Source: Spirochaetes bacterium GWE1_32_154
GTDB taxonomy: Bacteria; Spirochaetota; GWE2-31-10
Direction: 5' to 3'
NCBI GenBank assembly: GCA_001829315.1
Contig: MIAY01000025.1
Coordinates: forward strand, 124,928-188,927
Length of the DNA stretch: 64,000 nucleotides
Below are positions 20,079-57,515 of the stretch, one piece after another. A program made the position numbers and the translations under genes. The stretch's first letter is position 1, and every line of letters begins with the position of its first letter. Under the pieces are notes generated by a model. It was not told where the DNA came from. It saw nothing but the letters and a program-made list of their open reading frames with translations, and did no database searches.

Positions 20079-20243
20079 TGAGGCTTATGCAAAAATCAAG
20101 AGTACTTAATTTTGCTTTCGCCATATGCGATATAATCGCATTAGCCTCTGGTCGTAATGGTTACATTACTGCTCGAGCATGCAACCGGGGGTAGCCTCTT
20201 GCAAAAATTCGAGATTAAAAGAGTATTTTTGCAAGAGGCTCTA
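20079..20243. repeat. Composite palindromic intergenic repeat (copy C1)
   Basis: GAGGCTTATGCAAAAATCAAGAGTACTTAATTTTGC... + TGCGATATAATCGCA + GCCTCTTGCAAAAATTCGAG...GTATTTTTGCAAGAGGC; aligns to 51277 and reverse complement of 57394. Confidence 0.85.
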
Positions 20244-20882
20244 ATGGAAAAAATTGTATTTTCTTTCATTCTGTTACTATTTCAAATATTGATTGTAAAA
20301 TGCTTTCAGTATTTTACATCGTTTGATTATTACACAATTCTTTTTATAAGTTTTATTATTTCATTTATCGTGATATGTGCGTATCAGTATACAAAAAAAT
20401 ATGAACATTGGAGACTTTCCGGGAATTTGTTTTATGCTGTTTTGTATGGCTTAATTGCATATTCTGTCAGTGCTTTTTGTACAGTGCTGATATTAAAATT
20501 CCTTCCGATACATACCGTTGATTTTCTTTCAGAAATTATAATTAATAATTTAAACTCTCTTAACCCGGAAAAAATAGTACTTGTGTTTCTTGTAACCGGT
20601 ATTTTTGTTCCGGTTTTTGAGGAATTAGTCTTTAGATATTATTTTTTTAACGGTATTACGACAATAAAAATGGTGTATAAAAATGCAGATATTATTATAA
20701 CGGTGATTTTTTTCAGTTTATGTCATCTCTATTCAATTAAAGCTTTTGTATTTTCTGTATTTACAGGACTTTTTATAACTTTTTTTTATAAAATGTACAA
20801 ATCCATTGTTTTTTCTGTTATAATGCATTTTACTATAAATACTACAGGTTTATTAGTCGGGTATTTATTACATATTAATTAA
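20244..20882 (+). CDS. CPBP family intramembrane metalloprotease
   Basis: 'PVFEELVFRYYFFNGI', 'FFSLCHLYSI', 'VIMHFTINTTG'. ATG at 20244 preferred; the longer 20157 start translates the repeat. Confidence 0.85.
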   Translation: MEKIVFSFILLLFQILIVKCFQYFTSFDYYTILFISFIISFIVICAYQYTKKYEHWRLSGNLFYAVLYGLIAYSVSAFCTVLILKFLPIHTVDFLSEIIINNLNSLNPEKIVLVFLVTGIFVPVFEELVFRYYFFNGITTIKMVYKNADIIITVIFFSLCHLYSIKAFVFSVFTGLFITFFYKMYKSIVFSVIMHFTINTTGLLVGYLLHIN

Positions 20883-20892
20883 AGGATTTATT

Positions 20893-21681
20893 ATGACAAA
20901 TATTGATATTTCTATTGCTAATTCACTCGAGAAGTTAGGCTTAACTCAAAATGAGGCAAAAATATTTTTGTATCTTGCAGAAAAGCCAAATTCCAACGGA
21001 TATGAAATATCAAAAAATACTGGCATTTCCCGGTCACTTGTCTACGGTTCATTAGAAAAAATGACGAGTACCGGTATACTTGAGTTGACTCAAACAAACT
21101 CATCATCCTATAAACTTAAACCAATAGAAGAAATTAAAGACATTGTTGAACGAGGGATAAATAAAGCATTTAATGTATTAACCGAAAAATTATCCGAGAT
21201 AAAACCAGATACGGCTGATGAACTTTTTATCACCATTCAGGATAGAGATAATCAAAAAGCAAAAATGCGCTATTTAATAAAAACGGCGAATGATGCAATA
21301 TTTATAAGTGCCGGTATGCGGGAACTTGACTGGATAAAAGAAGAGTTGAATAACGTTCATGAATCGGTAAAAGTTCATATATTCAGCCTTGCAAAAATTG
21401 ACGGAATGCAGGGGCGATTTAATATATACTCAAAAGAGATGGATGATTCTTTTATTCAAAGTATGAAGTCTTTAAAGAATAAATGGAGAATTCTGATTAT
21501 TAAAGATGCAAGTGAAATGATCCTGTGTGGTGGCGATGATATAAAAAATGGAGTGGGTATATATACTAAAAATCCTATGACGGTAACATTTGCCCGTGAG
21601 CATTTTATTCATGATGTGAAAATATATAATATTGAACGTAAGTATACAATTGAAGATAATACTGAAAATTTATTTAGTTAG
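20893..21681 (+). CDS. TrmB-family transcriptional regulator
   Basis: 'LEKLGLTQNEAKIFLYLAEKPNSNGYEISKNTGISRSLVYGSLEKMTSTGIL' winged HTH. Confidence 0.87.
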   Translation: MTNIDISIANSLEKLGLTQNEAKIFLYLAEKPNSNGYEISKNTGISRSLVYGSLEKMTSTGILELTQTNSSSYKLKPIEEIKDIVERGINKAFNVLTEKLSEIKPDTADELFITIQDRDNQKAKMRYLIKTANDAIFISAGMRELDWIKEELNNVHESVKVHIFSLAKIDGMQGRFNIYSKEMDDSFIQSMKSLKNKWRILIIKDASEMILCGGDDIKNGVGIYTKNPMTVTFAREHFIHDVKIYNIERKYTIEDNTENLFS

Positions 21682-21721
21682 AACTCTTGATTATTTTTAA
21701 CAATTAAATTAGATTGTAATC

Positions 21722-22951
21722 ATGAAACTACTTTTTTTTAAACCGGGATCGATTTTATTTCCAATTGCTTTGCTTGCTATTATATTTTTCAGTAAACAAT
21801 TATTTATAAACTTTTTATCAGCATCTATTTTATTTTTATCAATGTATTGCATTGTTATTTCGGGAATAGAATATATTAGAAAGAAAAAAGATATTGATAT
21901 TCTGGTGAAATATGTGCCGGAATTTTTTCCTGGTCAATCGGGTCTGATTGAAATCGAGATTTCAGGCATTAACGATAATCTACCGGGGTATTTGTATTAT
22001 ATTTCATTTGGCGTTTTTGAAAAAGGTCTGAGAATTGATTCCCGGCTTGTTCGATTAAAACAAGAGCGTAAGCATGTGTTTAGTTTTGAATTTTCTTCTG
22101 AAAGACATGGTGAGTTTGATCTGAAGGATTTTCAATTAGTAACAACAGATATTTTCTTTTTTACTGAAACCGTCAAATATTCTGTTAATGAACTGCGGGT
22201 ACAGGTTTCTCTTAATCCTTCAGACTCGGGTTTAATCAGCTCGTTTTTCAATCAGGGGGGAGAAAAGCCGATTAAATCAAATATTATGCTTAATTCAACA
22301 GATTTTTTTGATGTGAGAAAATACTACCCCGGGGATGATTTGCGAAAAATGAACTGGAAAATATTTGCTCATACCGGTGAGCTTCATGTGAGAGAACAGG
22401 AAAAAATACCACCTGACAATGGAACAATATCATTTATTTTCTCACCGTATTCAAAAGATATTAAAGAGTACGAATTAATATCAGCTATTTTCTATAAAGC
22501 GGTTTTGGAATTTACAAACATACATATACCTGTAAAAATTTATCATCCGTCTTCAAGCGAACCTGCTGTTATTTCAAACGAGAATATTTCTGATTTATAT
22601 ACAATTTTGAATAATGCATATATCCCATTTCATAATTTTGTTACCATACCGCTATCGTCAATCGCCGGTGGTTTTTTCTCAGCCCAATCATTGTGTGAGG
22701 CGGGTACTCATTCTATTTTCTTTGAGAATTCAAAGATTTTTGTATCATTCTATAATTATAGTGTTACTTTTAGTACAGTAAAGAAAACATTGTATACGAT
22801 TCAATCGAGTGACAGTATCATTTCTGATATGCGAAAAATCATAATGAAAAATAAACAATCGCGGAATAAACAAAAAAAGTTAAATGAGAAAATAGAGTTA
22901 TTTTCTCAAAAAAAAATAAAGATTAATATAATAGAAGAGACTTTTGTATAA
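21722..22951 (+). CDS. DUF58 domain-containing protein
   Basis: 'DFFDVRKYYPGDDLRKMNWKIFAHTGELHVREQE' signature. Confidence 0.9.
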   Translation: MKLLFFKPGSILFPIALLAIIFFSKQLFINFLSASILFLSMYCIVISGIEYIRKKKDIDILVKYVPEFFPGQSGLIEIEISGINDNLPGYLYYISFGVFEKGLRIDSRLVRLKQERKHVFSFEFSSERHGEFDLKDFQLVTTDIFFFTETVKYSVNELRVQVSLNPSDSGLISSFFNQGGEKPIKSNIMLNSTDFFDVRKYYPGDDLRKMNWKIFAHTGELHVREQEKIPPDNGTISFIFSPYSKDIKEYELISAIFYKAVLEFTNIHIPVKIYHPSSSEPAVISNENISDLYTILNNAYIPFHNFVTIPLSSIAGGFFSAQSLCEAGTHSIFFENSKIFVSFYNYSVTFSTVKKTLYTIQSSDSIISDMRKIIMKNKQSRNKQKKLNEKIELFSQKKIKINIIEETFV

Positions 22952-22976
22952 ACAGATAAAAAAGCAAGGATTGATA

Positions 22977-25900
22977 ATGAAGATTTTGGTAGTACCGCCA
23001 ATTAGATTAATACTGAATATCGTTTTGTATTCAATAATCTTTATACTTGTTTCATTAAAATCAGATAAAGTATTTAATTATACTATTGGAATACTCATTA
23101 TTATTATCGCAGTTACTTTGGACTATTTTTTAGCACGATTAAAATACCGCTGGTTTGTACGTTTTTTTTTGACATCAATTATTATAGTTGTATTTTTTAT
23201 TATCACATTAATTTCATCAGAGTTGTTTTCTGATAAGCAAACACTCAATTTCTTTGATTTTATTTCTTACTATTTTTTAAAAGATTGTATTCCGGCAATT
23301 ATCTTTATTGCGTTTTATTATTTTTTTGATTCTGAACGGGTTGTGAAAAGAAATATGTATTCGTATGGTGTGTCTACTATTCTACTACTGCTTGGTTTAT
23401 ATTATATAACGTCGATAAAAAATACTATAGAAGATAGTATTTTTGTTAATTATTTTAATTATTCATTTGTGTTATTATCAATTTTGATACTGATTATACT
23501 GCGGCATATTACCATGTTTTCAAAAGACAAAAAGATCGTTTTGAAAGATTATCTTCTATTAATATTCATTTTTTGTGGAATGATATTTTTTCTCATTTCA
23601 GTAACCCTTAGTAGTTTTGTGAAAGGGTCGGGTAATAATTCAGGGGGATTGTTTGAGTCAGGTCTTTTTAAATTTGATTTTAATAATTTTCTTGAATTGA
23701 AAGACAGTATAAAATTAAGTGAAGACAGAGTATTGATTCTTGAGTTGGATGGCAGTGAAAAGTTAAGTGATACTTTTGTTCGTGACGATTGGAACAGGCA
23801 ATTATATATAAAACGGTTTTCCCTTGAAGAATTTGTTAGTCCGGGAGGGTTTAAGGTGTCCTCACGTCATACTGAACCCGATGCTCCGCCTCCTTTTCTT
23901 ACCGGATATTCGTGGGAGAGGCCGTTAGCCGGTGATTATTTTGCATCTCAAAGTTTAGTAGAAACGTTGTATATAGTAAATATTGATCCTTCAAGTGTGT
24001 TAGGCAGCGAGTTTTTGTATAAAATTGTTCCAATTGAATTATGGAAAGATGCACCGTTTAAACAGGTTTATAAATCTTTTTCATCGGTATATGTCGGGGA
24101 TTACAATGACATTTACGCTGATTTACCACAACAGAATGATTTATTGAACGCTATTTCGGTTGACCGGAAAAATCTTTTACTCGATTGGGGGGGTGAAAAA
24201 GATTTTGAGAAAAGAATTCAGACGTTAGCTCAAAGTTTAACTGCTGAGTATCCTGATCCGTTTATGAAAACGGTGATTATTCAGAATTATTTGCGGGATA
24301 ACTATTATTATTCATTAAAACCGGGTTTATCCGGTAAACTTTCGCCTGTAGAGTACTTTCTGTTTGAAGCAAAAAAAGGTTATTGCTCCTATTTTGCATT
24401 CAGCATGACAATAATGCTTCGTTCAATCGGAATTGCAAGTCGTGTTGCTGTCGGGTTTGCTCCTGATATGAATAATAAAACGATGAATTTTTACGATGTC
24501 CGGGTAAATGACGGCCATGCCTGGGTAGAGGTCTTTTTTGACGGATACGGCTGGGTTAACTTTGACCCGACGAGCAGTACTATTTTACCCGATGAGGAGT
24601 TTTCATTACCAAAAGACAGAAAAGACGAACGGTTATCACTGGTGGAAAATATTATGCAAAATAAAGACAATATGATTGAGGTAACCAGGAAACCAGATAT
24701 TATTACCAATGTATTTTCAAATTTTAAATCATTAATAAACAGATCAATACGGTTAATTGGTGTTGTATTTTTAGCTTTTTTTGTAACTCTGCTGTTTCTT
24801 GTTCTTTTTTTCAAAAAGAATGTACATCTTATAGCTTTTTATTGTTCACATTCTGATAGAAAAAAGATAAAATATCTCTGGCGTTATCAAATGACCGGTT
24901 TGCTTGCTCTGGGGTACCCGATTGAAAAAAATGAAAGTATTACAGAGTATGCACAAAGAATTTCTGATACAACCGGTATTGATATCCGGACACTGACTGC
25001 GTTATATCAGGAAGTTATATTTGGTAATGAAACATCACTATTTGATAAACCTGAAAAATGGTTATATGCTTATAAACGTGACATAAAAAAAATACCTTTA
25101 CGAAAAAGAATACAGTCATATTGTTCAATTTCAATTTTATTCCGCCGTATAGTACCGTTGTTTGTCATACTGTTTATTCCTTATTTTTCGTTTGGTGATG
25201 AGAATAGTATACGGGATTATATGCTGAGAGCAAAAGAGGCTGTACATAATAGTTATTATGATATGGCAATTAAGATTTTAAATGAGGCCGAAGAAAAATT
25301 CCCTGAATCATATCTGCCGGATTATGAAAAAGGAACAATTTATTTTGATAATGAAATTTATGGAATGGCAGTTAAGGAATTTACTGATGCTAAAAAAAAG
25401 GGTTTACAGAATGAGGATATTTATACACAAATAGCAAATTCGTATAGTAAACAGGGCAAAGATGAATTGGCACTATCGACTTATGAAGAGGCAATCACGA
25501 TTATTAATGAATCGGTTGATCTTGTAGATAACCTTGGCTGGCTTTATTACAAGACTCATAACTATACAAAAGGAATTGAGTTTATTGAATCAAAACTTAC
25601 TGTATATGGTAAAGACCCGGATATTCTTATGACCTTAGGGACTTTATATTCTTCGATATGGGATTATGAGAAAGCAAAATCATGTTATATTTCTGCTATT
25701 TCAAATTCGTACTCGTATAAATTGAGCGAGTTTAGAGCAATCGTATATTATAATCTGGCACTTATTGAGGAGTCTTTTTTGTATTATGATAATGCACACA
25801 ATTCAATGCTTGCATCACTTGCACTGATGGAGCGAAGTTCTGCATATATGGGGCTTGCATACCTTAGTATGAGATTGATGAATCTGAAAGAATCGTATAA

Positions 25901-26867
25901 TTACATTCAAAAAGCATCGTCTTTACCCCCGAAAACAGCGTTTCCGGAGTCTGCTTTGTGTTATTTGTATACCATTTCGGGTAATGTTGATGAGGCAATT
26001 ACATTATCAGAGTTAATTTTAAATAACCAGGATTTTTCCTGGATGATGTATTTTGGAACGAGTATTGAAGGTTTCAATGGTGATATTTATAAAGTGCTGT
26101 CAACAGCATATAATTATAAAAGTGCAATGATTTCGTTTTCAGAAAAAGAATCATTCGTACATACAATTATCCGGCCGTTTAAAAAGAAATATTATCAGCT
26201 GAAGTCACTCTATTATAACTTTGTATACAGTACCATTTTCATCCGGCTCGGGAATAAGAAAATTTCCGGAGGAAGTGATCTTGACGGACTTAATCAAATT
26301 ATTTCGGGACTTGAAGAAATTGCTCCCCGCCGTGCACTCAAGGTTTCACGAATTGCCAAGGGTATTGAGATCCCGTTAAACAGGAATAAGCAAAGGATTT
26401 ATGATGCCGAAGAATCGTTATTATCTACAAATGAATTGTTTGTATCAAAAGAAACAAAAATTCAAAGAATCGTAGAGGCTATGAATGGACTTGATCCAAA
26501 GTGGGAAAAAGATATGAAATCACTTTTGCTTGTTGAAGCTATACAATTATCAAATAACAAAAAATATAACTATTTAAAGGAAATGTTATTTGTAGAATAT
26601 CCTCAAATGGCACCATTGAATGGTATTAAAATTCCTGCGATTATTTATGGTGAGAAGCATAATGCGGAAATTATAAAAAAAATCAAAAAAAGAGGCTTTT
26701 ATGAGTCATATAAAAGTAAAATTGAAATAATAGTTTCTGATTTGGATGATGAAAAGATTAAAATTATGATAAAATATAAAGATTCAGTATTGTATGATTT
26801 TGATTGTACGAGAAAAGATTGTGGTGTTGAGTTGTATGAGCGGATTTTTAAAGTTAAGTTGTTGTAG
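22977..26867 (+). CDS. Membrane transglutaminase-like (TgpA-type) protein fused to TPR region
   Basis: 'EAKKGYCSYFAFSMTIMLRSIGIASRVAVGF', 'DGHAWVEVFFDGYGWVNFDPT' (Cys-His-Asp core); C-terminal TPR-like repeats. ATG 22977 with AAGGA RBS. Confidence 0.88.
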   Translation: MKILVVPPIRLILNIVLYSIIFILVSLKSDKVFNYTIGILIIIIAVTLDYFLARLKYRWFVRFFLTSIIIVVFFIITLISSELFSDKQTLNFFDFISYYFLKDCIPAIIFIAFYYFFDSERVVKRNMYSYGVSTILLLLGLYYITSIKNTIEDSIFVNYFNYSFVLLSILILIILRHITMFSKDKKIVLKDYLLLIFIFCGMIFFLISVTLSSFVKGSGNNSGGLFESGLFKFDFNNFLELKDSIKLSEDRVLILELDGSEKLSDTFVRDDWNRQLYIKRFSLEEFVSPGGFKVSSRHTEPDAPPPFLTGYSWERPLAGDYFASQSLVETLYIVNIDPSSVLGSEFLYKIVPIELWKDAPFKQVYKSFSSVYVGDYNDIYADLPQQNDLLNAISVDRKNLLLDWGGEKDFEKRIQTLAQSLTAEYPDPFMKTVIIQNYLRDNYYYSLKPGLSGKLSPVEYFLFEAKKGYCSYFAFSMTIMLRSIGIASRVAVGFAPDMNNKTMNFYDVRVNDGHAWVEVFFDGYGWVNFDPTSSTILPDEEFSLPKDRKDERLSLVENIMQNKDNMIEVTRKPDIITNVFSNFKSLINRSIRLIGVVFLAFFVTLLFLVLFFKKNVHLIAFYCSHSDRKKIKYLWRYQMTGLLALGYPIEKNESITEYAQRISDTTGIDIRTLTALYQEVIFGNETSLFDKPEKWLYAYKRDIKKIPLRKRIQSYCSISILFRRIVPLFVILFIPYFSFGDENSIRDYMLRAKEAVHNSYYDMAIKILNEAEEKFPESYLPDYEKGTIYFDNEIYGMAVKEFTDAKKKGLQNEDIYTQIANSYSKQGKDELALSTYEEAITIINESVDLVDNLGWLYYKTHNYTKGIEFIESKLTVYGKDPDILMTLGTLYSSIWDYEKAKSCYISAISNSYSYKLSEFRAIVYYNLALIEESFLYYDNAHNSMLASLALMERSSAYMGLAYLSMRLMNLKESYNYIQKASSLPPKTAFPESALCYLYTISGNVDEAITLSELILNNQDFSWMMYFGTSIEGFNGDIYKVLSTAYNYKSAMISFSEKESFVHTIIRPFKKKYYQLKSLYYNFVYSTIFIRLGNKKISGGSDLDGLNQIISGLEEIAPRRALKVSRIAKGIEIPLNRNKQRIYDAEESLLSTNELFVSKETKIQRIVEAMNGLDPKWEKDMKSLLLVEAIQLSNNKKYNYLKEMLFVEYPQMAPLNGIKIPAIIYGEKHNAEIIKKIKKRGFYESYKSKIEIIVSDLDDEKIKIMIKYKDSVLYDFDCTRKDCGVELYERIFKVKLL

Positions 26868-26879
26868 CCGGAGGGTGTT

Positions 26880-27509
26880 GTGAATAAAATTATTATTGTT
26901 GGCAGTGGCAATGATTTTGATGCAAAGAAGATAATCGATGAAGCACACTATGCTGATTATATAATCGCTTCAGATGGTGGTTATACTATTTTAAAAGATT
27001 GCGGTATTAAACCTGATATAATCATTGGTGACATGGATAGTATTACATGTGAAATTGATCAAGATATAACAATTAATAAATATCCTGTTGATAAAGATTT
27101 AAGTGACAGCGAATTATCATTGCAATACGCTATTTCTATGAATCCTGTTATTATCAAATTATTTGCAGTAACCGGATGTTATTTTGATCATTCATTTGCA
27201 AATGTATTGAATTTATTCAGAAATGATACCGAATCTACAATGATTGAAATTGTAACCGCTAATTCAACCATTTTTACGGTAAAAAGTGGAGGGTATTCTC
27301 TATCTAATCTTAATGGCCGAAGAGTTTCTCTGTTTTTTTTGTCACCGGTAACCGATTTCAGATTAACCGGGTTTAAATATAATTTCTCACAAACAGATTT
27401 AAGCCCTTTTGATTATAGTTTAAGTAATGTTATCAATGATGATGATGCTGTTATTAGTTTTACTGACGGGAAAGTAATTTGTATTGTATTTGATGGTGGA
27501 TATGAGTAA
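26880..27509 (+). CDS. Thiamine pyrophosphokinase
   Basis: 'IASDGGYTILKDCGIKPDIIIGDMDSI', 'PVDKDLSDSELSLQYA', 'VTGCYFDHSFANV'. Confidence 0.9.
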   Translation: MNKIIIVGSGNDFDAKKIIDEAHYADYIIASDGGYTILKDCGIKPDIIIGDMDSITCEIDQDITINKYPVDKDLSDSELSLQYAISMNPVIIKLFAVTGCYFDHSFANVLNLFRNDTESTMIEIVTANSTIFTVKSGGYSLSNLNGRRVSLFFLSPVTDFRLTGFKYNFSQTDLSPFDYSLSNVINDDDAVISFTDGKVICIVFDGGYE

Positions 27510-27840
27510 TCCATATTTGTATGTATTAAAAAAGATTATGCAGCTTTCGGGAAAATTTATTACTTTATTGTTTATTATTAGAATATTGATACTGATATTT
27601 TTTGGTATTGGTAATGTTCAGTATTTTACGAATGAGTCAATGGTTTTTATTATCAGAGCCGGTTTGATTATAGACTCATTAATTATTCTGGCAGGAACTT
27701 TAAACTTACCATGGTGTTTTTTTAAATGGAAAAGAAAATTATATATAGTACTGGATATATTCAGAACTTTTTTTTATTTGGCATTTTCTTGTATAACGAT
27801 ATTTACAGGTTTATTTATTCTCGCTGTAATTACAGGCTGA
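27502..27840 (+). CDS. Small hypothetical membrane protein
   Basis: Overlaps thiamine pyrophosphokinase stop; three hydrophobic segments. Confidence 0.55.
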   Translation: MSNPYLYVLKKIMQLSGKFITLLFIIRILILIFFGIGNVQYFTNESMVFIIRAGLIIDSLIILAGTLNLPWCFFKWKRKLYIVLDIFRTFFYLAFSCITIFTGLFILAVITG

Positions 27841-27856
27841 TTTTGCAAGAGGCTTT
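27838..27856. repeat. Half copy of the palindromic intergenic repeat
   Basis: TGATTTTGCAAGAGGCTTT between two convergent stops. Confidence 0.65.
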
Positions 27857-28586: not shown

Positions 28587-28588
28587 GA

Positions 28589-30420: not shown

Positions 30421-30659
30421 AGTAACTCCTTGTGTGGTGAATTTTAAAACAATGAGGCTTAAAAATCAAGTGTTATGTGGGAAATAAAATAAATAATAGG
30501 TATCGTATAAAGCACCTCATATATTATTCAGATTTTACAAAATCGAAGTGTTATTGCAATTTTAAATAACATATTCATTGAATAACTTGAATTTGAATTG
30601 ATAATATATTTTGAATATCGCTCCCCAATCAGATAATAAATATTTTACTAATATTTCAT

Positions 30660-30688
30660 TTTACAAAAAAATCTATATATAATATAAT
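30660..30688 (+). promoter_or_regulatory. Predicted sigma70-type promoter for pnp
   Basis: TTTACA-17 bp-TATAAT, followed by AAGGAG RBS and ATG at 30720. Confidence 0.7.
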
Positions 30689-30719
30689 GATTTTCACATA
30701 AGGAAGATAAGGAGTAATA

Positions 30720-32891: not shown

Positions 32892-32903
32892 TAAAAAAAT
32901 AAT

Positions 32904-32939: not shown

Positions 32940-32958
32940 CAATTTATAAGGAGATGGT

Positions 32959-34829: not shown

Positions 34830-34836
34830 GTTATTT

Positions 34837-43378: not shown

Positions 43379-43430
43379 AGAGCTTCTTGTAAAAATACTC
43401 TTTTTACTTTGAATTTTTGCAAGAAGCTGC
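43379..43430. repeat. Single-hairpin copy of the palindromic repeat (with degraded extension to about 43460)
   Basis: AGCTTCTTGTAAAAATACTC...GAATTTTTGCAAGAAGCT; then AAAGCGATTTTGCATTT resembling the central stem region. Confidence 0.75.
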
Positions 43431-43467
43431 ATATAAAGCGATTTTGCATTTACCTCAATAGGTTTTT

Positions 43468-44768: not shown

Positions 44769-44837
44769 TGTTTATAATAATGCTTTTGTACTTATCAGCA
44801 TACGCTGTTCAAAAATATAGTATCGAGGAGTTTACTA

Positions 44838-45851: not shown

Positions 45852-45861
45852 AGGTGCAATT

Positions 45862-46833: not shown

Positions 46834-48737
46834 GTATCGTGATTTCATTAATAATTTTAATTATTGCATTGATTGGCGCCCCATTATTTGCTGTAATTGG
46901 TTTAATGTCAATTACCAATTTTCATGGTGCTAATCAAAGTGTTCTGGTTGTTGCTCAGGAAATTGCATCAAAAATAGTTTCTGTGCCAATGTTATATAGT
47001 ATTCCATTATTTACTTTCGCCGGTTACATTTTGGCATCGAGTAAATTTTCATCGAGACTTGTCCGTTTTACCAAAGCAGGTTTAGGTTGGATGCCGGGTG
47101 GACTTGGTATTGTTACACTTATAACATGTGCGTTTTTCACTGCTTTTACCGGTGCTTCCGGGGTTACTATCGTGGCTTTAGGCGGTTTTTTACTGCCTGC
47201 GTTATTATCAGAAAAGTATGAAGAAAAATTCTCACTCGGGTTGGTCACTTCATCGGGTAGTTTAGGTCTTTTATTTCCTCCAAGTTTACCAATTATCATA
47301 TTTGGTGTTGTTGCTGGTGCCAATATCGATCATTTGTTTGCGGCTGGTGTTATGCCCGGTATTTTTAGAATTCTTATATTAGCTTTTTTTGTAATCTACA
47401 AAGGAATTACCGGAAAAGTTGAAACAATATCATTTAATTTTAAAGAATTATGGTTGTCATTTAAAGAAATTATGTGGGAAATACCGTTACCGGTTTTATT
47501 ATTTGCAGGTATTTATACAGGAAAATTGGCGTTGTCTGATGCTGCTCCTTTTACTGTTGCGTATGTATTACTTGTTGAAGTAATAATTAAACGGGATATA
47601 AAAATTAAAGAAATGCCTGAGATCGTAAGAAAAAGCATGATCATTGTCGGTGCAATTTTATTAATTATGTGTGTTTCATTTGCAGCAACAAATTATATCG
47701 TGTATCAGGAAATACCTCAGAAGCTGTTTGCTGCAATGCAGCAATTTATTACCAATAAATTTGTTTTTCTTATGTTGTTAAATATTTTTCTTTTAGTTGT
47801 TGGATGTGTTATGGATATTTTCTCGGCACTTGTTGTTGTCGTCCCATTAATTTATCCGATAGCATACGAGTACAATGTAAATATAGTTCATCTTGGTATA
47901 ATTTTTCTTGCCAATTTAGAGATTGGTTACTTAACCCCGCCGGTTGGAATGAATCTTTTTATTTCATCATTAAGGTTTAAGAAATCAATTATATTATTGT
48001 ATAAGGCAAGTGTAAATTTTATTCTTATTTCTTTGGTGACCCTTATGGTAATCACATATGTGCCCGGTTTGAGTTTATGGTTTTTTGAAAAACCATCAAT
48101 TTCTGGTAAATGGGAATTTAATAATCAGGATACCGGAGAGACTGATTTACTGGTAATGAAAGCCGGTGGAAAGTACTTACGAAAAAAAATTGATCCCAAT
48201 GATATATTTTCTATGATGACTCCTTATACTACCGGTGAATATATTTTAAATAAAAATACACTTTCTTTGCATACCGATGGTGGTGTTGAAGAGTATAAAT
48301 ATGAAATATACAATGATGGAGAGCGGTTATTACTAAAGAATACAGGTGAACCAAACATTACTGCGGAATCAGAAGTTGAATATGAAGAGGAAACTGTACA
48401 TGATGGTCGTGTTTTTTATATAAATCAAATTGATCCTCCATTGGGTGAGACCAACGGTAATTTAATAGGTCATTGGACTGGTGATAAATTGACAGTAAAT
48501 ATATTTTTTAATGGTAATATGTCATGGAATAATGATGGTGTATTAAGTGAATATTTTTATTCGATTAAAAAAGGGATTATTAAGTTAAGAGATGCGTCTC
48601 AAACCGGAAATAGTAGTATTTCTGTTGTTAAAGAATTGAAAGTTAAATTTATAAATTCTAAAAATATTATTTTAACAGATAAAAAAACAGGTGAAACGAG
48701 TAACCTGATTCTTCAGGATAGTAATAGCGATTTATAG
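46830..48737 (+). CDS. TRAP transporter large permease (DctM family) with C-terminal soluble extension
   Basis: 'FAGYILASSKFSSRLVRFTKAGLGWMPGGLGIVTL', 'GLLFPPSLPIIIFGVVA', 'NLEIGYLTPPVGMNLF'; about 215 aa after the last TM. Confidence 0.92.
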   Translation: MSIVISLIILIIALIGAPLFAVIGLMSITNFHGANQSVLVVAQEIASKIVSVPMLYSIPLFTFAGYILASSKFSSRLVRFTKAGLGWMPGGLGIVTLITCAFFTAFTGASGVTIVALGGFLLPALLSEKYEEKFSLGLVTSSGSLGLLFPPSLPIIIFGVVAGANIDHLFAAGVMPGIFRILILAFFVIYKGITGKVETISFNFKELWLSFKEIMWEIPLPVLLFAGIYTGKLALSDAAPFTVAYVLLVEVIIKRDIKIKEMPEIVRKSMIIVGAILLIMCVSFAATNYIVYQEIPQKLFAAMQQFITNKFVFLMLLNIFLLVVGCVMDIFSALVVVVPLIYPIAYEYNVNIVHLGIIFLANLEIGYLTPPVGMNLFISSLRFKKSIILLYKASVNFILISLVTLMVITYVPGLSLWFFEKPSISGKWEFNNQDTGETDLLVMKAGGKYLRKKIDPNDIFSMMTPYTTGEYILNKNTLSLHTDGGVEEYKYEIYNDGERLLLKNTGEPNITAESEVEYEEETVHDGRVFYINQIDPPLGETNGNLIGHWTGDKLTVNIFFNGNMSWNNDGVLSEYFYSIKKGIIKLRDASQTGNSSISVVKELKVKFINSKNIILTDKKTGETSNLILQDSNSDL

Positions 48738-48786
48738 AACCTCTTGCAAAAATACTCTTTTTATCTCGAATTTTTGCAAGAGTCAC
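48738..48786. repeat. Single-hairpin copy of the palindromic intergenic repeat
   Basis: AACCTCTTGCAAAAATACTCTTTTTATCTCGAATTTTTGCAAGAGTCAC immediately after the dctM stop. Confidence 0.85.
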
Positions 48787-48851
48787 TATAGATTTTGTCA
48801 GATTCAAAAGTTATGTAGTAACTTTATTATATTTTTTTTTAAGAGGGTTTT

Positions 48852-49856: not shown

Positions 49857-49868
49857 ACCGCGACTGAT

Positions 49869-49903
49869 AAAAAAAAGCAATCTGTTACAGATTGCTTTTT
49901 TTT
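49869..49903. terminator. Bidirectional rho-independent terminator
   Basis: AAAAAAAGCAATCTGT-T-ACAGATTGCTTTTTTTT between convergent genes. Confidence 0.9.
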
Positions 49904-50237
49904 AAACCAAACAAGTACCTCTAATATAGAGTTTTTCCAAGTTGTAAAATTCTCTCGATTCTGCTTCAAAAATATGAAATATAATATCTGAGGCATCGAC
50001 TAAAATCCATGGATTATTAGTTTCAACATTTTTACTCATTAAATATTGTCCATAATTATTTTCAAGCAAAGCATCTGTTACGTATTTTGTCAGACTCTGG
50101 GCGTGAATATTAGAATTTGCAGTAACAATAAAAACAAATTTTGTTATTGTTGTAATTTCTGATACATCATACACTTTCAAGTTTTCACCTGATTTTTCAT
50201 TTATTAAAGAAACTAGATCTGAAATTAGTTTTTCCAT
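49902..50237 (-). CDS. rsfS: Ribosomal silencing factor RsfS (Iojap)
   Basis: 'FVIVTANSNIHAQSLTKYVTDALLE', 'PWILVDASDIIFHIFEAESREFYNLEKLY'. Confidence 0.92.
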   Translation of the reverse strand: MEKLISDLVSLINEKSGENLKVYDVSEITTITKFVFIVTANSNIHAQSLTKYVTDALLENNYGQYLMSKNVETNNPWILVDASDIIFHIFEAESREFYNLEKLYIRGTCLV

Positions 50238-50401
50238 TAAGAAAACTTCCTAGGGTTGGTATTTTGTTAATGTATAATATAATATCAAATAAAATTCAAG
50301 AAAGATAATTGTATTTGTAAAATAATTTAAAAACTAATGAATAATTAGTTTGATTATTACTATATTTTGATATAGTGTATATTTATTTGAGGAGAAACTT
50401 C

Positions 50402-51235
50402 ATGGTACATAAATTATTATTATACATTGCTATTTTGTTTTCATTCGTTGGTTTGCATGCAAATACGCTTTTAATCAATGATTTCATGAGTGAAAAAGAA
50501 ATCGCTGATGTTCTTTCAGGTTCAATCATTACAAGAATGTATTTGAAAAACAATGCACTTGGTGAAAATAGTGATGAATTTATTAAGGTTCCCACAACTT
50601 TTTTTTCAAAAGAATCATTTTCAGAATATGAAATGATTACCGATGAAAAAGCATTTTTTCCCTACAATCTATCAGAGAAAGATATAGTAGAATTTTATAC
50701 AATAATTAGTTCACCTTCAAAATTAAAAGGAACTCAATATTATTCACGACGTGATGAGAAAATCGATTATTTAATACTTGATTGTTATCAGATTGACGAT
50801 AAAAATAAACGGATAAATGATGCAGTTCAAACAGAAATTAAAGAGTATCTAGTTGGACGATTCAGGCAGAAAGATAATAAATTCGGTACATTAAATTTTA
50901 AAAGTGAGTTATATAATCAGGATAATAATTTTGTTATGATTGCAACATGTGAAAATGCGATTCCTTTAATATCAGGTAAGGATGAATATAAAATTCTTTC
51001 TTATTTTATATATGATGAAGTGAATAAAGGTTTTTTCTATTATTCAGTGTTTGCTATGCGAATTAGAACCGAAATGTTTCTTAAGAAAAATAGTTTGAAA
51101 ACATTAGCTCCTACAACATTTTCAAATAGATTGCGAGCAGCTACTGTGCAAATTGCACACCTTATTGGTTTAGACTGGTCTGATAAATATAATCCGTGGG
51201 AAAATGATCCGCTGGGAAGAGATAAATATAGATAA
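50402..51235 (+). CDS. Secreted hypothetical protein
   Basis: Signal peptide 'MVHKLLLYIAILFSFVGLHA' with GAGGAG RBS; start 50402 preferred. Confidence 0.65.
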   Translation: MVHKLLLYIAILFSFVGLHANTLLINDFMSEKEIADVLSGSIITRMYLKNNALGENSDEFIKVPTTFFSKESFSEYEMITDEKAFFPYNLSEKDIVEFYTIISSPSKLKGTQYYSRRDEKIDYLILDCYQIDDKNKRINDAVQTEIKEYLVGRFRQKDNKFGTLNFKSELYNQDNNFVMIATCENAIPLISGKDEYKILSYFIYDEVNKGFFYYSVFAMRIRTEMFLKKNSLKTLAPTTFSNRLRAATVQIAHLIGLDWSDKYNPWENDPLGRDKYR

Positions 51236-51276
51236 AAACACGGATATGTGGTATAATATGTTTAATGATTTAATAA

Positions 51277-51396
51277 AGAGGCTTTTGCAAAAATAATGAG
51301 TACATTTTTTTGCGTACGCCATATGCGATAAAATCGCATTATAGGAAGCCTCATGCAAAAATTCGAGATAAAAAGAGTATTTTAGCAAGAGGCTCA
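51277..51396. repeat. Composite palindromic intergenic repeat (copy C2)
   Basis: GAGGCTTTTGCAAAAATAATGAGTACATTTTTTTGCG + TGCGATAAAATCGCA + GCCTCATGCAAAAATTCGAGATAAAAAGAGTATTTTAGCAAGAGGCTC. Confidence 0.88.
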
Positions 51397-51409
51397 AAAG
51401 GAAAATATT

Positions 51410-52084
51410 TTGAATAAAAATTTGATTTTATTATTACTATTTTTTTCGTTTATTTCTATTAACGCAGCGGATATCATTTCAGACAATACTGATGATGAAT
51501 ATGTGAGTAAATCTTTATCAATGGAAGTAAAAAATTCTTTTGATAAAAAATATTCTCTTCCGGCGAAAGAATTCTTTTTTTTCAGGGGTGGGGTTCAGAT
51601 TACAGAAAAAGAGTTTGAATTAATTGTAAAAGATACATCAATACGTGAGAATAAGAAAAAACTCAAAGATAAAAGTGATTTTGGTTTTGGATCAACGTTA
51701 GTTCTTGGCGGAATGGCGACTGCCTTTTTGATTCCATCAATTGTGTTTGTCGTAACACAAACAACATATTCCCAAAATTACAGTTTATACAGTAATTATA
51801 CAGATTGGTTTAATTATTATAGTGATAATTATAATTATACCATACTACCGGGGCTTATCAATATAGGCTTAACGTTCGTTTTTTCTGTTGCGGCCGTTAT
51901 AAATCTTGCCGTAACATTCGGGATTATTAATAAATACAAATATAACGAAAATTTATACCGTGATATAATTGAACGGTATAATAGAAAATTACGATCACGA
52001 TATTCAGTGCTCCCGTCAATTTCAGTTGCAAATTTTGGTGAAAATGATGAACGTATTTGTTTTTCAATAAAAGTAACAATGTGA
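51410..52084 (+). CDS. Hypothetical membrane protein with signal peptide
   Basis: AAAAGGA RBS, TTG start; 'MNKNLILLLLFFSFISINA'; two TM segments. Confidence 0.6.
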   Translation: MNKNLILLLLFFSFISINAADIISDNTDDEYVSKSLSMEVKNSFDKKYSLPAKEFFFFRGGVQITEKEFELIVKDTSIRENKKKLKDKSDFGFGSTLVLGGMATAFLIPSIVFVVTQTTYSQNYSLYSNYTDWFNYYSDNYNYTILPGLINIGLTFVFSVAAVINLAVTFGIINKYKYNENLYRDIIERYNRKLRSRYSVLPSISVANFGENDERICFSIKVTM

Positions 52085-52099
52085 GTCTCTTGCAAAAGT
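52084..52099. repeat. Half copy of the palindromic intergenic repeat
   Basis: AGTCTCTTGCAAAAGT directly at the stop codon of the 51410 gene. Confidence 0.55.
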
Positions 52100-52101
52100 G
52101 T

Positions 52102-55100
52102 TTATTTTCTCATAATCAGAAGTTCTTCTAATGATTCATTATCAAATTCACTTATCCATTGTTCGTTATTTTCGACCGTAAGATTTGCAAGTTCTTTCTT
52201 TGTTTTCAACATACGATCTATTTTTTCTTCAAATGTTCCCTCAGTTATTAGCCGGTAAACCATTACGTTATTGTTTTGCCCGATTCGATATGCCCTGTCA
52301 GTAGCTTGTGCTTCAACTGCCGGATTCCACCATAAATCAAAATGAATTACATAATTTGCTGCAGTGAGGTTTAGCCCTGTTCCTCCTGCTTTTATTGTTA
52401 AAATCATTGTGGAAGCACAACCGTCCTGAAAATCTTTAACGGAAGCATCCCTTTTTTCCCGTGTTAAACCGCCATGAATATACAATACCGTATTATTATA
52501 TGTTTTCTGAATTTGCTGTTTTAAAATATCACCCATTTCTCTATATTGTGTAAAAATGATTACTTTATTACCCGATTCGTAAATATCATTCAATAACTCA
52601 AGCAGCAATATTGATTTACCGGAAAGTGAAGGCGAAATATCATCATTTTTCAAATAATTTGCCGGATGGTTACAAACCTGTTTTAATGCAGTAAGAAGTT
52701 TGAATATTAACCCACGCCGTTCCATCCCGGATAATGTTTTAATTTGATCCATTGCATTATCGACCAGACCCTGATAAATGGTTGTTTGTTCTGCTGTTAA
52801 GTGTGTTAACTCATCAATTTCGATTTTATCAGGAAGATCACTAATAATCGATTTATCAGTCTTAATTCTTCGCAGAAAAAATGGTGAAGTTATCTTTTTA
52901 AACCGTTCAATACTCTCAGCGTCAAATTCTTTTTCTATCGGATAGGCAAATCTTTCCTTAAAATGTTCAATCGTACCAAGATAACCGCGATTGACGACAT
53001 TCATAATTGACCAGAATTCCGTTAATCTGTTTTCAACCGGTGTTCCGCTTAAAGCAATTTTATGATCGGCTTTAATTTTCAGAGCAGCTTTTGTTCTGTC
53101 AGTATGAATGTTTTTTAAATTCTGAGCTTCATCAAAAATCACAACTGCCCATTTACATTCATTAAGTTTTTCAATATCGTTTCGCATAATGCCATAAGTG
53201 GTGATTACAATATCACAATTGTCAGGAAATAAAGATGATGACCGTATTGCTCCGTAATAGGTAAAATACCGTAAGTCATGAGTAAACTTTTCGATTTCCT
53301 TTTCCCAGTTTGTCAGAAGTGCTGTCGGTACGATTATTAACGCCTTTTTACTTTTGAAAACTCCCGTTTCTTTTAATCGTTGAAGAACAGAAATTGTTTG
53401 AATTGTTTTCCCGAGTCCCATATCATCAGCGAGAATTGAACCCATTGATAAAGAAATATTGCGGTTTAACCAGTTATAACCCGCTTTTTGATATTCACGA
53501 AGCGTTGCGTTAAGACCGGCCGGCAGTGGGAAATTTTTTAGTTGCAACCTGTTTTTTATGTTTTCCCGCAGTTCATCATCAGTGATTATTTCAAGGTTAT
53601 CATGACTTTCTTCAAGAATTGCCTGGAAGCTGTTTTTTTCGCTAATCGTTATCGGTTTTTTTATTCGTGAAATTATCTTTTCAATATCCTGTTTAGTTAT
53701 ATGTATGAATTGGTCTTTAATTTTAATAAGACCGGTTCGGTTATTTACCTCTTCGAGAAAAGTCGCAGGGTCAATAAAATTATTCCCCAATGCAATAGTA
53801 TAATTAAAACGGGTGATATCCTGCAATTGAAAATATGTGGTGGTATTTTCAGTACGTGCACTTGCTTTTATTGAAAGTGCAGGGTGTAACACCTTGTTAA
53901 GTTCTTTCGGTAGTAGAAGCTCAACACCGAGTATATTCAGAATAGGTAAAATTGTGTCAAAGAAGATAGAAAATTCATCAGAATTAAGCGTAAGAGGTGT
54001 CGAGCCGTTACTGTCGGTTATTATATTTAATTTTTCGTAATATTCTGCAATTGTTCCAAATTTCTTTAAAACCTGAAGACGTAAATCAGTGTAATTATCA
54101 TTGTATAATATTTTCTTAAGCGGGATATATTCGTTTGTATTAAAAAGTATTTCATACGATAATAGAAAATCATTTTCTTTCTCGGTGATTTTAATAACAG
54201 GTGTAAAATTACCCTGGGTGATGTTAAATTTTGAAAGCCATTTTCTAATTGAATATGGAATCTCGGATTCATAAAATTTCGAAACGGTATATCTGAATGT
54301 TTTAAAGAAAAACTCCTGAATCGGATCATCATTAGTTACTAAATAAGCGGCTTTTTTTCTTACCATCATTTCGAGGAATAAAGAAAGCATTACAAATGTT
54401 GCTGAATGAGAATCAAGTTGTTCCGGTTTTGAATCGGTAATATATGACTTTACCATAAATACCGGAGCGTTACGAAATCTCGATTGAATTGATTTAAAAA
54501 TTGTATTGGTTGCTTCCGGTATGAGATATGGAATATACTTTAATATAAAATATTTATCAGTAAATTTGTAAATAGCCGGGATAAAATTACCAGTTTCAAA
54601 AATTCTACATGCAAAGTGAAACGTATAAAATAAAAATGCAATATTATCAGTATGTTTTTCAATTGTATTTATGTTTATTTCATTAAGAAAGGTTTCAATA
54701 CGGTGAAAATCACGATGATTTGTTGCAGAAATTGACTGCTCTTCGGATTGAATAGTACATTCTTTAAGTGATAAAACCTCATCAAAGAGTATTGTTGATT
54801 TAGTAAATTCGTATGTTAAAGAGTGTTTGTATTCAGTCTCCTCATCACGATTTTTATCCAACTTTTTATATACTGTTGTAAGCATTTCTTTGAAATCACC
54901 AGCATTATAAAAAAAAGGTGATGGATTTAATAACGAAATAAGCCTGTCTTTCATATTTTCGATTTTTTTTAAATCCGGCACAAGGAACTCTTTATTTTCT
55001 ATAACTACAGAAGATTGCCGTATAAGTGATGAAATCCCGGGTATTTCATCTGATTTTGCATTAAGCATGTCAATACCATTCTCTTTGAGGCTTTTAACAA

Positions 55101-55584
55101 TATCAAAACCCCTTAGTTTAAAAATCAATGTCGGATCTCTGTCTATTTCAGCAGATAACATAAATGAAACAGCGGCTATGTGTTTGCAAGGTACAGAATA
55201 ATCAGGGCATGAGCATAGTGATTGTATATCACTCCATTTTTCAATAAACAAAGATATCTTCAAATCTTTAAAAACATCAAGAATTGATTCCGGCAAACTA
55301 CCGTTTAAGAGAGAAGAAAGAACTGTTCTATTATAGGTAATATTATTTGTTATCAGTTTAGCGTCATTTTCACTTATTTCTTTGAATTTCATGATGATTT
55401 TATAAGGTGTGGAACTTGACCCTTTTACTTTTGCAGAAACAACATTATCTTCAATTTTAAGATCTTTTACATGGCCGGTATTTGCATACGATTTTCCTCT
55501 TGAAAGCCTTCCGCCAATATCTATAGCATATAATGCTTCAAGCCATTTTTCAGACCACCAGCTTTTTCCGTAAATTTTAGCCAT
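52102..55584 (-). CDS. SNF2-family DEAD/H helicase with SWIM zinc finger
   Basis: 'CSCPDYSVPCKHIAAV' SWIM; 'ILADDMGLGKTIQTISVL', 'IFDEAQNLKN', 'ATDRAYRIGQNNNV'. Confidence 0.96.
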   Translation of the reverse strand: MAKIYGKSWWSEKWLEALYAIDIGGRLSRGKSYANTGHVKDLKIEDNVVSAKVKGSSSTPYKIIMKFKEISENDAKLITNNITYNRTVLSSLLNGSLPESILDVFKDLKISLFIEKWSDIQSLCSCPDYSVPCKHIAAVSFMLSAEIDRDPTLIFKLRGFDIVKSLKENGIDMLNAKSDEIPGISSLIRQSSVVIENKEFLVPDLKKIENMKDRLISLLNPSPFFYNAGDFKEMLTTVYKKLDKNRDEETEYKHSLTYEFTKSTILFDEVLSLKECTIQSEEQSISATNHRDFHRIETFLNEININTIEKHTDNIAFLFYTFHFACRIFETGNFIPAIYKFTDKYFILKYIPYLIPEATNTIFKSIQSRFRNAPVFMVKSYITDSKPEQLDSHSATFVMLSLFLEMMVRKKAAYLVTNDDPIQEFFFKTFRYTVSKFYESEIPYSIRKWLSKFNITQGNFTPVIKITEKENDFLLSYEILFNTNEYIPLKKILYNDNYTDLRLQVLKKFGTIAEYYEKLNIITDSNGSTPLTLNSDEFSIFFDTILPILNILGVELLLPKELNKVLHPALSIKASARTENTTTYFQLQDITRFNYTIALGNNFIDPATFLEEVNNRTGLIKIKDQFIHITKQDIEKIISRIKKPITISEKNSFQAILEESHDNLEIITDDELRENIKNRLQLKNFPLPAGLNATLREYQKAGYNWLNRNISLSMGSILADDMGLGKTIQTISVLQRLKETGVFKSKKALIIVPTALLTNWEKEIEKFTHDLRYFTYYGAIRSSSLFPDNCDIVITTYGIMRNDIEKLNECKWAVVIFDEAQNLKNIHTDRTKAALKIKADHKIALSGTPVENRLTEFWSIMNVVNRGYLGTIEHFKERFAYPIEKEFDAESIERFKKITSPFFLRRIKTDKSIISDLPDKIEIDELTHLTAEQTTIYQGLVDNAMDQIKTLSGMERRGLIFKLLTALKQVCNHPANYLKNDDISPSLSGKSILLLELLNDIYESGNKVIIFTQYREMGDILKQQIQKTYNNTVLYIHGGLTREKRDASVKDFQDGCASTMILTIKAGGTGLNLTAANYVIHFDLWWNPAVEAQATDRAYRIGQNNNVMVYRLITEGTFEEKIDRMLKTKKELANLTVENNEQWISEFDNESLEELLIMRK

Positions 55585-55589
55585 TATAA

Positions 55590-56735
55590 TTAACCTTTAT
55601 GGGAGCCTTTACTTTCAGAGACATTTTGAGTGATTACACTGAAAATTGTCTCTGATAAGAAACCAAATTCTTTTAATTGTTTATGAAGTGTACTAATGAC
55701 AACTTTAATAATAGCGATAACAGGAATAGCTGCAAGCATACCGACAAAGCCAAATAAATTACTTCCTGCCATAATTCCAAGTATTACAATTAATGGATGT
55801 AAATTGACTGATTTACCCAGAATTGCCGGTTTAATTATTTGATCTAATACTTGAGTAATTGCAACAACAATAAGGATTTTAATAATTGATGGTGATAGCC
55901 CGAAAATAGATACATTATCGATAGGTATGAGATTTAAAACATAGAGTGAAACACCAAGGATTGCACCGAATAGAGGACCAACATACGGTATTGCATTTGC
56001 TAAACCTGCAATTGATCCGGTAATAATAGCAGTACCCAGCTGAAAACCGCAAACATACCATCCAAGAGAAGTTAATATACCAATTACAAGGCTTTCCAGA
56101 AGTGTTCCGCGAATGTATGAACCGAAAATATTATCAACCTCACGTAGTGTGATAAGACTCATCTCAAAATATTTATTTGGTATAAATGAAAGAAGCCATT
56201 TTCTTATTTCGCGTTCATTCAACAGAAAGAAAAAAACGGTGAAAGGTATTACAATAAGTAATGAAAAAACACCAGAAATATTTGAAATTATTTTTGGAAT
56301 AGTATCAGTAAGGTTGAAACTTGATTTTATTTTATCAATTAATCCATCGTTAAGTTCATCCCAGTTGATTATTGGATATTTAATCTTTAAATCATCCTTC
56401 AGAATACTTAAATTTGTAATTGTTTTTGATTGAATCTCAGCCATGGATTTTTGTGAAGGGAAAAACTCTATAGTAATAAAAATGAGTCCTGCAATAATAA
56501 AAAAGACAGCAATAAAAATTGAAATTATGACCCAAATTCTTTGAATTTGTTGTCTTTCAAAATAACCGACAATTGGGTTTATAAGATATGATATGATAAA
56601 TGCAGTTATAACGCCTGTTAGAAGAGGAACTAATGAATATAAAGAAAATAAACCTATTGCGATAACAAATATATAAAAAAAGAATTTAATAAAGTTAACC
56701 TGCAAATATGTTTTAATTTTATTATCAGTGATCAT
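55590..56735 (-). CDS. AI-2E family transporter/permease
   Basis: 'GLANAIPYVGPLFGAILGV', 'ILGKSVNLHPLIVILGIMAGSNLFGFVGMLAAIPV'. Likely start at ATG 56735, 11-nt overlap with upstream gene. Confidence 0.9.
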   Translation of the reverse strand: MITDNKIKTYLQVNFIKFFFYIFVIAIGLFSLYSLVPLLTGVITAFIISYLINPIVGYFERQQIQRIWVIISIFIAVFFIIAGLIFITIEFFPSQKSMAEIQSKTITNLSILKDDLKIKYPIINWDELNDGLIDKIKSSFNLTDTIPKIISNISGVFSLLIVIPFTVFFFLLNEREIRKWLLSFIPNKYFEMSLITLREVDNIFGSYIRGTLLESLVIGILTSLGWYVCGFQLGTAIITGSIAGLANAIPYVGPLFGAILGVSLYVLNLIPIDNVSIFGLSPSIIKILIVVAITQVLDQIIKPAILGKSVNLHPLIVILGIMAGSNLFGFVGMLAAIPVIAIIKVVISTLHKQLKEFGFLSETIFSVITQNVSESKGSHKG

Positions 56736-57300
56736 TTTTAACCTCAGCAAGAAGTTTATATTTAACAAGTTCTTCATTAGCTTCTTTTAGTCTTTTCGTA
56801 ACCATTGCAGCTAAATCTTTTAATATTTTATTGCCTAGGAGCGGTTCTCTTGCGATAAGGTCAAACAGATCATGTCGGAATATAATGATTACGGTCGTAT
56901 TTGTTGTACATCGTGCATTTGCATTTCGTTCCGAGTCTTCGATGAGTGAAATCTCACCGGTAAAATCACCGGATATCAAAGTTGCATACACATCTTTTAT
57001 ATTTAGTTTGTTGGATTTTTCTATTGACACTGTACCGTTTTTGATAATAAAAACAGCAGAGCCTGGATTTCCTTCCTTAAAAAGGAATTCTCCGGTAGCA
57101 TATTTTCTTTCATATATAATATAACTTACTTTAATCAGCTCTTTTTTAGTTAATTGAGAAAAAATTGGAACTTTTTTTAGAATATTAAGAATATCAACAT
57201 CCTGATTTTCAGTTGCACCTCGAAAAATATTCTGCCATAGCGGGGTATAAATTTTTCTTAATTGTTCTTCCTGCGGTTTTTCATTTTTTTTAATATTCAT
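56725..57300 (-). CDS. Cyclic-nucleotide-binding domain protein
   Basis: 'ATGEFLFKEGNPGSAVFIIKNGTVSIEK', 'SGDFTGEISLIEDSERNANARCTTNTTVIII'. Confidence 0.88.
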   Translation of the reverse strand: MNIKKNEKPQEEQLRKIYTPLWQNIFRGATENQDVDILNILKKVPIFSQLTKKELIKVSYIIYERKYATGEFLFKEGNPGSAVFIIKNGTVSIEKSNKLNIKDVYATLISGDFTGEISLIEDSERNANARCTTNTTVIIIFRHDLFDLIAREPLLGNKILKDLAAMVTKRLKEANEELVKYKLLAEVKNDH

Positions 57301-57393
57301 AGAAGTTTTATCTCCATTTTCCTGTATTATATAACAAATTTTTTTTTTTTTATTATTAATAATTTTTTTTTACAATTATTAATATTTTATATG

Positions 57394-57515
57394 ATGAGGC
57401 TCTTGCAAAAATACTCATTTTATCTCGAATTTTTGCAAGAAGCTTCCTAAAGCGCAATTATATTGCGTAATTGCGGAAGCAAAATCAAGTACTCTTGACT
57501 TTTGCAAGAGCCTCT
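57394..57515. repeat. Composite palindromic intergenic repeat (copy C3, inverted orientation)
   Basis: Reverse complement aligns end to end with C1 and C2; central stem CGCAAT-TAT-ATTGCG at 57453-57467. Confidence 0.88.

Follow-up and report, generated by a model that had tools for sequence, protein, structure and literature searches.

A very probable new family of modular, hairpin-rich miniature transposons with 4-bp target duplications in a spirochaete genome

Introduction

What kind of element is a palindromic repeat that recurs between the genes of a spirochaete as half copies, single hairpins and composites? The question is raised by a 64,000-nucleotide stretch of Spirochaetes bacterium GWE1_32_154 (hereafter the window; contig 25, positions 124928–188927; GC content 32.6%), which belongs to a genome of 4.03 Mb in 43 contigs. 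An earlier sequence-only reading of the window had described an interspersed palindromic repeat family, compared its shape with REP-type and MITE-type sequences, and proposed a non-autonomous element that was either mobile or formed a regulatory RNA. In the current study, we describe the copy number, ends, anatomy and placement of this family across the genome, and we conclude that its members are very probably new non-autonomous DNA transposons of the kind known as miniature inverted-repeat transposable elements (MITEs).

Dispersal, Termini and Target Duplication

The core 13-mer of the repeat, CTCTTGCAAAAAT, occurs 16 times in the window when up to one mismatch is allowed (0.29 expected; 0 of 100 shuffles reach 16), and its exact form occurs 190 times (99 + 91) in the 4.03-Mb genome, against 0 for the reversed control. 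With 27 copies as its basis, a covariance model scored at least 150 sites genome-wide, so that the family proposed from the window alone is borne out by far more than a handful of copies. All statistics on full and solo copies, target duplications, modules and open reading frames (ORFs) given below derive from 599 kb of DNA surrounding these sites, which yielded 136 near-full elements (109–231 bp, mode 119 bp) and 54 solo hairpins of approximately 50 bp, the latter set including a few weak matches. The identity between nearest-neighbour copies has a median of 93% and a maximum of 99%, and thus not all of the family is ancient.

The elements are bounded by imperfect terminal inverted repeats, GAGGCTCTTGCAAAAAT on the left and GAGCYTCTTGCAAAAAT on the right. 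When the right end is written as the pattern GAGC[TC]TCTTGCAAAAAT and the left as GAGGCTCTTGCAAAAAT, agreement reaches 82–100% at each position, right-end position 5 excepted. Directly outside these ends, an exact 4-bp direct target-site duplication (TSD) flanks 87 of the 136 full copies, compared with 2.9 expected from mispaired flanks (ends set by profile), while duplications of 3, 5 and 6 bp were observed 8, 1 and 0 times (3.8, 0.4 and 0.3 expected). The same 4-bp duplication borders 20 of the 54 solo hairpins (1.5 expected). The duplicated site is AT-rich, most commonly TATA, with an excess of C preceding it and of G following it (consensus C-TATA-G). Terminal inverted repeats, a target duplication of constant length, short size, the lack of a transposase and a high copy number (approximately 190) are all features by which MITEs are recognized.

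Modular Anatomy

A full element is a chain of hairpins: a left hairpin, an optional 20-bp extension, a central hairpin, optional nested hairpins, and finally a terminal right hairpin, with the right terminal repeat as its outer arm. The left end, GAGGCTCTTGCAAAAAT, itself carries a short hairpin around AGTA. Among the 136 copies, the 20-bp extension is present in 31, the optional C module in 22, and the optional D hairpin, nested in the C module or beside it, in 6. The central hairpin exists in two forms, ATGCGAT/ATCGCAT (73 copies) and ACGCAAT/ATTGCGT (59 copies), and these combine almost freely with the left-hairpin types (46/34 versus 14/16). Two longer length classes possess TSDs of their own, in 15 of 25 and 18 of 25 copies, which indicates that the longer variants transposed after gaining their modules. 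Many of the solo hairpins share the left end of the full element (GAGG), and rarer solos of 45–46 bp show another junction.

At positions 74051–74156 of contig 11, a composite has a C module whose tip contains a nested D-like hairpin with the loop GGTACC. A GTAC-type loop is common to several optional hairpins, as if such structures accreted at hairpin tips.

Stem Covariation and Template Switching

The local stems contain 62 two-sided changes compared with 26 in shuffles, and slid controls remain near zero. Between the two terminal repeats, by comparison, the number of two-sided changes is 0, and the right end thus follows its own hairpin rather than the left end. Almost none of the altered pairs are G-U wobble intermediates (about 3 one-sided cells, compared with 62 two-sided ones). 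Four copies have a left hairpin that was turned, apparently in one step, into a long near-perfect palindrome. Two of them (C11:104170 and C33:40042) now carry the inner arm's complement in place of the outer arm, terminal repeat included; in the other two (C32:4443 and C39:105627), the outer arm's complement has replaced the inner arm. Corrections in both directions are the expectation for template switching during replication, and the first two destroy a transposon end, which rules out selection for transposition as their cause.

Compensating stem changes that arise from a single replication event, a template switch, have been described for RNA hairpins (PMC8794818). The spirochaete stems resemble that system in their one-event compensating changes; the difference is that the earlier work concerned RNA sequences, whereas here a dispersed transposon family offers many sibling copies for comparison, and its approximately 190 hairpins provide material to measure the template-switch repair of palindromes. 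We take template-switch homogenization to be the main cause of the stem covariation, on the strength of footprints in four copies; for the bulk of the copies this cause is presumed. We further read the covariation as no proof of RNA function, and this carries a warning for other repeat families, in which covariation alone should not be accepted as such proof.

Genomic Placement and In-Frame Insertions

Most copies are intergenic. ORF calls cover 87% of the 599 kb, yet only 9 of the 136 copies fall within them, some of these in chance 5' extensions, which confirms the intergenic enrichment expected from the window. The genes adjacent to a copy are co-directional in 74 cases, divergent in 32 and convergent in 14 (228, 45 and 54, respectively, for gene pairs without a copy), and the copies thus show no concentration downstream of genes, where terminators would be expected. 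One copy (949–1129 of locus L031) has an end that coincides with the upstream border of a cobalamin riboswitch (L031:757–951, minus strand).

The sequence-only reading had placed no copy inside a core coding region; this is true of the window and fails for the genome, in which at least five copies lie in frame within genes and at least two disrupt them. Together, a 119-bp element and its 4-bp TSD amount to 41 codons, and at least five 119-bp copies are both in frame and open within genes: in a histidine kinase, within its HATPase_c domain (C43:45430); in a ferric-reductase-like FAD/NAD protein (C14:131376); between the receiver domains of a hybrid kinase (C36:124580); and in two signal peptides as read from the sequence, one belonging to a lipoprotein (C17:94273), the other to a 7TMR-DISM protein (C19:132254). 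All of these except the lipoprotein copy are flanked by an exact TSD. Each predicted host protein would gain approximately 41 residues. When the element and one TSD copy were removed from two of these proteins, the domain score rose in both, from 24.5 to 36.7 bits for HATPase_c and from 37.0 to 42.1 bits for FAD_binding_8. The copies that break genes comprise one of 118 bp with the TSD GAGT that causes a frameshift in a GNAT-like acetyltransferase (C30:4104) and one in a CHASE2-like protein (C11:104170), both gene names being read from the sequence.

A length compatible with the reading frame is found in 60 of the 136 copies, and approximately 24% of the frames through 119-bp copies are open; an intragenic insertion would therefore be both in frame and open by chance in about 1 of 10 cases. 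The observed 5 of 7 intragenic copies, a comparison of small numbers biased by gene decay, points to the survival of tolerated insertions. Open frames occur in 39 of 46 copies, compared with 13.5 in structure-preserving shuffles, and selection for coding was considered as a cause and rejected, because the consensus is already open in two frames (at least two are open in 6.7% of shuffles) and the copies vary equally at all codon positions. No codon-position bias, and hence no conserved peptide or selected reading frame of the kind discussed for Rickettsia palindromic elements (RPEs), was found in the variability of the copies. We instead read the enrichment of open frames as founder luck plus survivorship. 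Since element and TSD together make whole codons and about one-quarter of the frames are open, some copies can survive within proteins, where they appear to persist as 41-residue inserts; their in-frame state is read directly from the sequence, and the proteins that would carry them are predicted.

A broader proposal builds on these observations: that the family is a coding-compatible hairpin transposon outside Rickettsia, with a modal length that together with the TSD gives whole codons, a founder open in two frames, 41-residue segments inserted into signal peptides and into signalling and redox proteins that still work, and palindromes continually re-perfected by template switching. We advance this combined picture tentatively, as possible rather than probable. 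If true, such a family would constitute a natural experiment on both in-frame insertion and template switching.

Transposase Search and Distribution

The sequence-only reading had suggested looking for a transposase with matching termini, either of the TnpA-REP type or from an insertion sequence (IS), and none emerged from the profiles tried or from a flank scan. In the element's own genome, PF01609 gave one match, an IS982-family copy (L064:1411–2421, minus strand), and PF13751 gave only a broken IS1182-like remnant (L141), both without element ends; PF13359, PF07592 and PF01797 gave no match there. The PF07592 result covers ISAzo13, which we take to have GAG-type ends. PF01609 also gave no match in four relatives, and a scan of the DNA around the copies found fewer IS-sized, TSD-flanked end pairs than expected by chance. 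Several candidates were rejected upon inspection: an IS-like 1.99-kb end pair in the sister genome (C311) has ordinary genes between its ends, along with two separate short elements, an end pair at C12:52.5–54.5 kb encloses mnmA and a neighbouring gene, and the terminal-repeat matches in viral contigs, which have no convincing ends to pair with, appear to be chance.

Strict patterns for the element found it in no other genome among 392 genomes of the phylum, nor in an 84,980-species GTDB collection from which records of the element's own genome may be absent. Neither Rfam nor the plasmid and phage searches yielded a match, in keeping with the original impression that the repeat belongs to no named family. 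As far as the databases and literature searched reach, the family is therefore undescribed, its separation from RPE and BOX elements (below) being drawn from published descriptions.

The ends themselves reach further. In MAG.183 (JAKSBL01; here G001), a sister genus within the same GTDB family, the same ends occur 228 times compared with 37 in the control; the G001 elements are shorter and differ in their interiors, and an exact 4-bp TSD was present in 5 of the 17 inspected. These shared ends, some with 4-bp TSDs, suggest that a transposase specific for them probably acted in both genera. Loci L219–L238 of G001 contain a 98-bp MITE family (GAGGTTCTTGCAAAAATGCAACG...GCATTTTTGCAAAAGCCTC), some copies of which have 4-bp TSDs, and a second family (GAGGTGTTTGCAAAAATAACCAT...ATTTTTGCAAACACCAAAG) with a less clear right end; a tRNA-like sequence (L222:2550–2600) immediately follows one of the latter family's terminal repeats.

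Alternative Explanations and a Proposed Mechanism

Several observations weigh against a transposon origin: an exact TSD is missing from 49 of the 136 full copies (many of the 49 match at 3 of 4 positions); no strain-level empty site was found in the genome collections searched; no transposase is bordered by element ends, most of the genome having been searched only with the five profiles named above; and between co-directional genes the element lies in the same orientation 46 times and in the opposite one 28 times, a modest bias that hints at an effect at the transcript level. This bias, the strong local stem covariation, the intergenic siting (with 32 divergent and 74 co-directional sites) and the copy abutting a cobalamin riboswitch would suit an element selected for a role in RNA regulation or mRNA processing, with transcribed hairpins that act on neighbouring genes. 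We nevertheless regard that explanation as improbable, given that the near absence of G-U intermediates (about 3 versus 62 cells) fits a process at the DNA level better than selection on RNA, both orientations are used, the hairpin is not followed by a U-run, Rfam holds no match, and the TSDs already account for the dispersal. Far less credible still is spread by a Y1 (RAYT) transposase in the manner of REP/BIME palindromes, which are likewise short, high-copy and intergenic, alone or combined: the 4-bp duplication contradicts the REP mechanism, the terminal repeats are paired, the ends GAGG/GAGC are bordered directly by the TSD with no GTAG (or CGTC) tag, and PF01797 (Y1_Tnp) had no match in the genome although it matched 8 of 14 controls. 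From the original comparison of shapes, the MITE-type likeness therefore holds and the REP-type likeness does not, there being no detectable Y1/TnpA-REP transposase. Similarly, the mobile half of the earlier inference is strongly supported by the ends, the TSDs, approximately 190 dispersed copies, copied module variants and gene-interrupting insertions, whereas a regulatory RNA is neither needed nor shown; individual copies may have been co-opted despite their mobile origin.

Within a transposon reading, two features allow a different account. The stems could be kept perfect by selection for transposition, if a transposase or a replication intermediate required hairpin ends, and the right end does lie almost always within a long hairpin, which right-end variants retain while diverging from the left end; two of the four perfected copies, however, have lost the left terminal repeat and lack a recognizable TSD, and we consider this account unlikely compared with template switching. 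The solo hairpins could likewise be an independent minimal mobile element, as their common fixed length of approximately 50 bp and the 20 of 54 copies with their own TSD might suggest. An internal deletion would also keep the TSD, though, and deletion between direct repeats predicts the GAGG left end that many solos share with full elements, while the rarer 45–46-bp solos have another junction; independent mobility of the solos is thus also a minority prospect in our judgement.

The transposon reading that we prefer may be put together as follows. A transposase acting in trans would recognize ends of the form GAG-N4-TTGCAAAAAT and insert the element through a 4-bp staggered cut at AT-rich C-TATA-G sites, generating the 4-bp duplication. 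The interior hairpin chain would gain and lose modules, and internal deletion between repeated TTGCAAAAAT arms, as the junctions suggest, would leave the solo hairpins of approximately 50 bp. Replication copying one arm off the other would be the main process keeping the stems perfect, a general role extrapolated from the corrected copies. Natural selection would clear most genic insertions, some copies persisting in proteins as in-frame 41-residue inserts.

Comparison with Known Palindromic Elements

RPEs are palindromic repeats of approximately 105–150 bp that are found between genes and in frame within conserved protein genes, with open frames (PMC2229807, PMC10969869), and their target duplication is listed as unknown (PMC2229807). 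The spirochaete element is similar in size, in its in-frame gene insertions and in its open frames, but it belongs to another phylum, has a clear 4-bp TSD and is intragenic in only about 5% of cases, compared with nearly half for RPEs; the likeness is one of description. Protein-invading palindromes of this type have so far been discussed mainly for Rickettsia, without a clear target duplication, and the same behaviour now appears in a spirochaete lineage coupled with an unambiguous transposition signature. This supports the view that in-frame palindromes result from ordinary transposition followed by the survival of harmless insertions, with no special coding mechanism.

BOX elements of Streptococcus pneumoniae (about 125 copies, close relatives only) are built of hairpin modules, those in the middle being optional, and have terminal repeats and TSDs (PMC3049150). 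The spirochaete family shares this modularity with a variable middle by analogy; judged from descriptions, its optional modules are different hairpins, some of them nested, whereas those of BOX are tandem boxB units, and it additionally has a fixed 4-bp TSD and in-frame copies in conserved domains. We therefore liken the family, by analogy, to RPEs in its coding tolerance and to BOX elements in its modularity. The RUP, Correia/NEMIS, ERIC and Nezha MITEs are also non-autonomous, AT-rich and mostly intergenic, with terminal repeats, TSDs and strong secondary structure, but they mostly have TA-type termini and other terminal repeats (PMC2229807), and partner ISs have been proposed for several of them and as yet none for the spirochaete element. 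REP/BIME sequences with RAYT are alike as high-copy intergenic palindromes, single or composite, and differ in that the spirochaete element has TSDs, no GTAG tag and no detected RAYT.

Copies in the Window

The three composites seen originally at 20079–20243, 51277–51396 and 57394–57515 are all full elements, with ends now refined to 20080–20241 (plus strand), 51278–51395 (plus) and 57396–57514 (minus). The first, 162 bp in length and identified by sequence and TSD test, lies between two genes in a TAATG stop/start overlap. It comprises a central B hairpin, ATGCGAT-ATA-ATCGCAT (20125–20141), an optional C module, CTGGTCG...GCATGCAACC (20145–20191), and a right-end E hairpin (20193–20241), all on the plus strand. 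Its left TAAT duplicate (20076–20079) contains the TAA with which the upstream serine-protease gene ends, and the right one (20242–20245) overlaps the ATG (20244) of a CAAX-protease-like gene, so that the duplicated TAAT supplies a stop to one gene and a start to the other. The 118-bp element at 51278–51395 is flanked by TAAA and AAAA, a 3/4 match, and the 119-bp element at 57396–57514, between divergent genes for a cNMP-binding protein and a deaminase, is flanked by TGAT (57392–57395 and 57515–57518).

The single hairpin reported at 48738–48786 is a 50-bp solo (48737–48786, minus strand) downstream of the dctM (TRAP) stop codon, with the TSD TATA at 48733–48736 and 48787–48790, and that at 43379–43430 (refined to 43380–43429) belongs to a decayed copy (43380–43445, minus) that retains the right E hairpin and part of the central hairpin and ends without an exact TSD. 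Among the proposed half copies, the one at 27838 is weak, with two mismatches, and may be chance; that at 52084–52100 (plus), a left terminal repeat that has one mismatch and lies at the stop codon of a gene, is a probable remnant; and two are clear remnants, namely a lone left terminal repeat at a stop codon (5771–5787, minus; exact 13-mer, covariance-model E 0.001) and half of a right hairpin (7331–7375, minus; 21 bits) fused behind a terminator-like hairpin.

Two minor observations concern neighbouring sequences. A different repeat, CGACTCGGCTATTGTCACACAAA...TTAAACCGGAAGATTTC, occurs as two diverged direct copies approximately 400 bp apart on contig 28 at about 34.6 kb (L143:4080–4580, minus strand), where it adjoins a broken IS1182-like transposase remnant. 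In the window, the terminator-like hairpin and T-run at 7300–7340 lead directly into the right-hairpin half copy, and this remnant may form part of the terminator tail.

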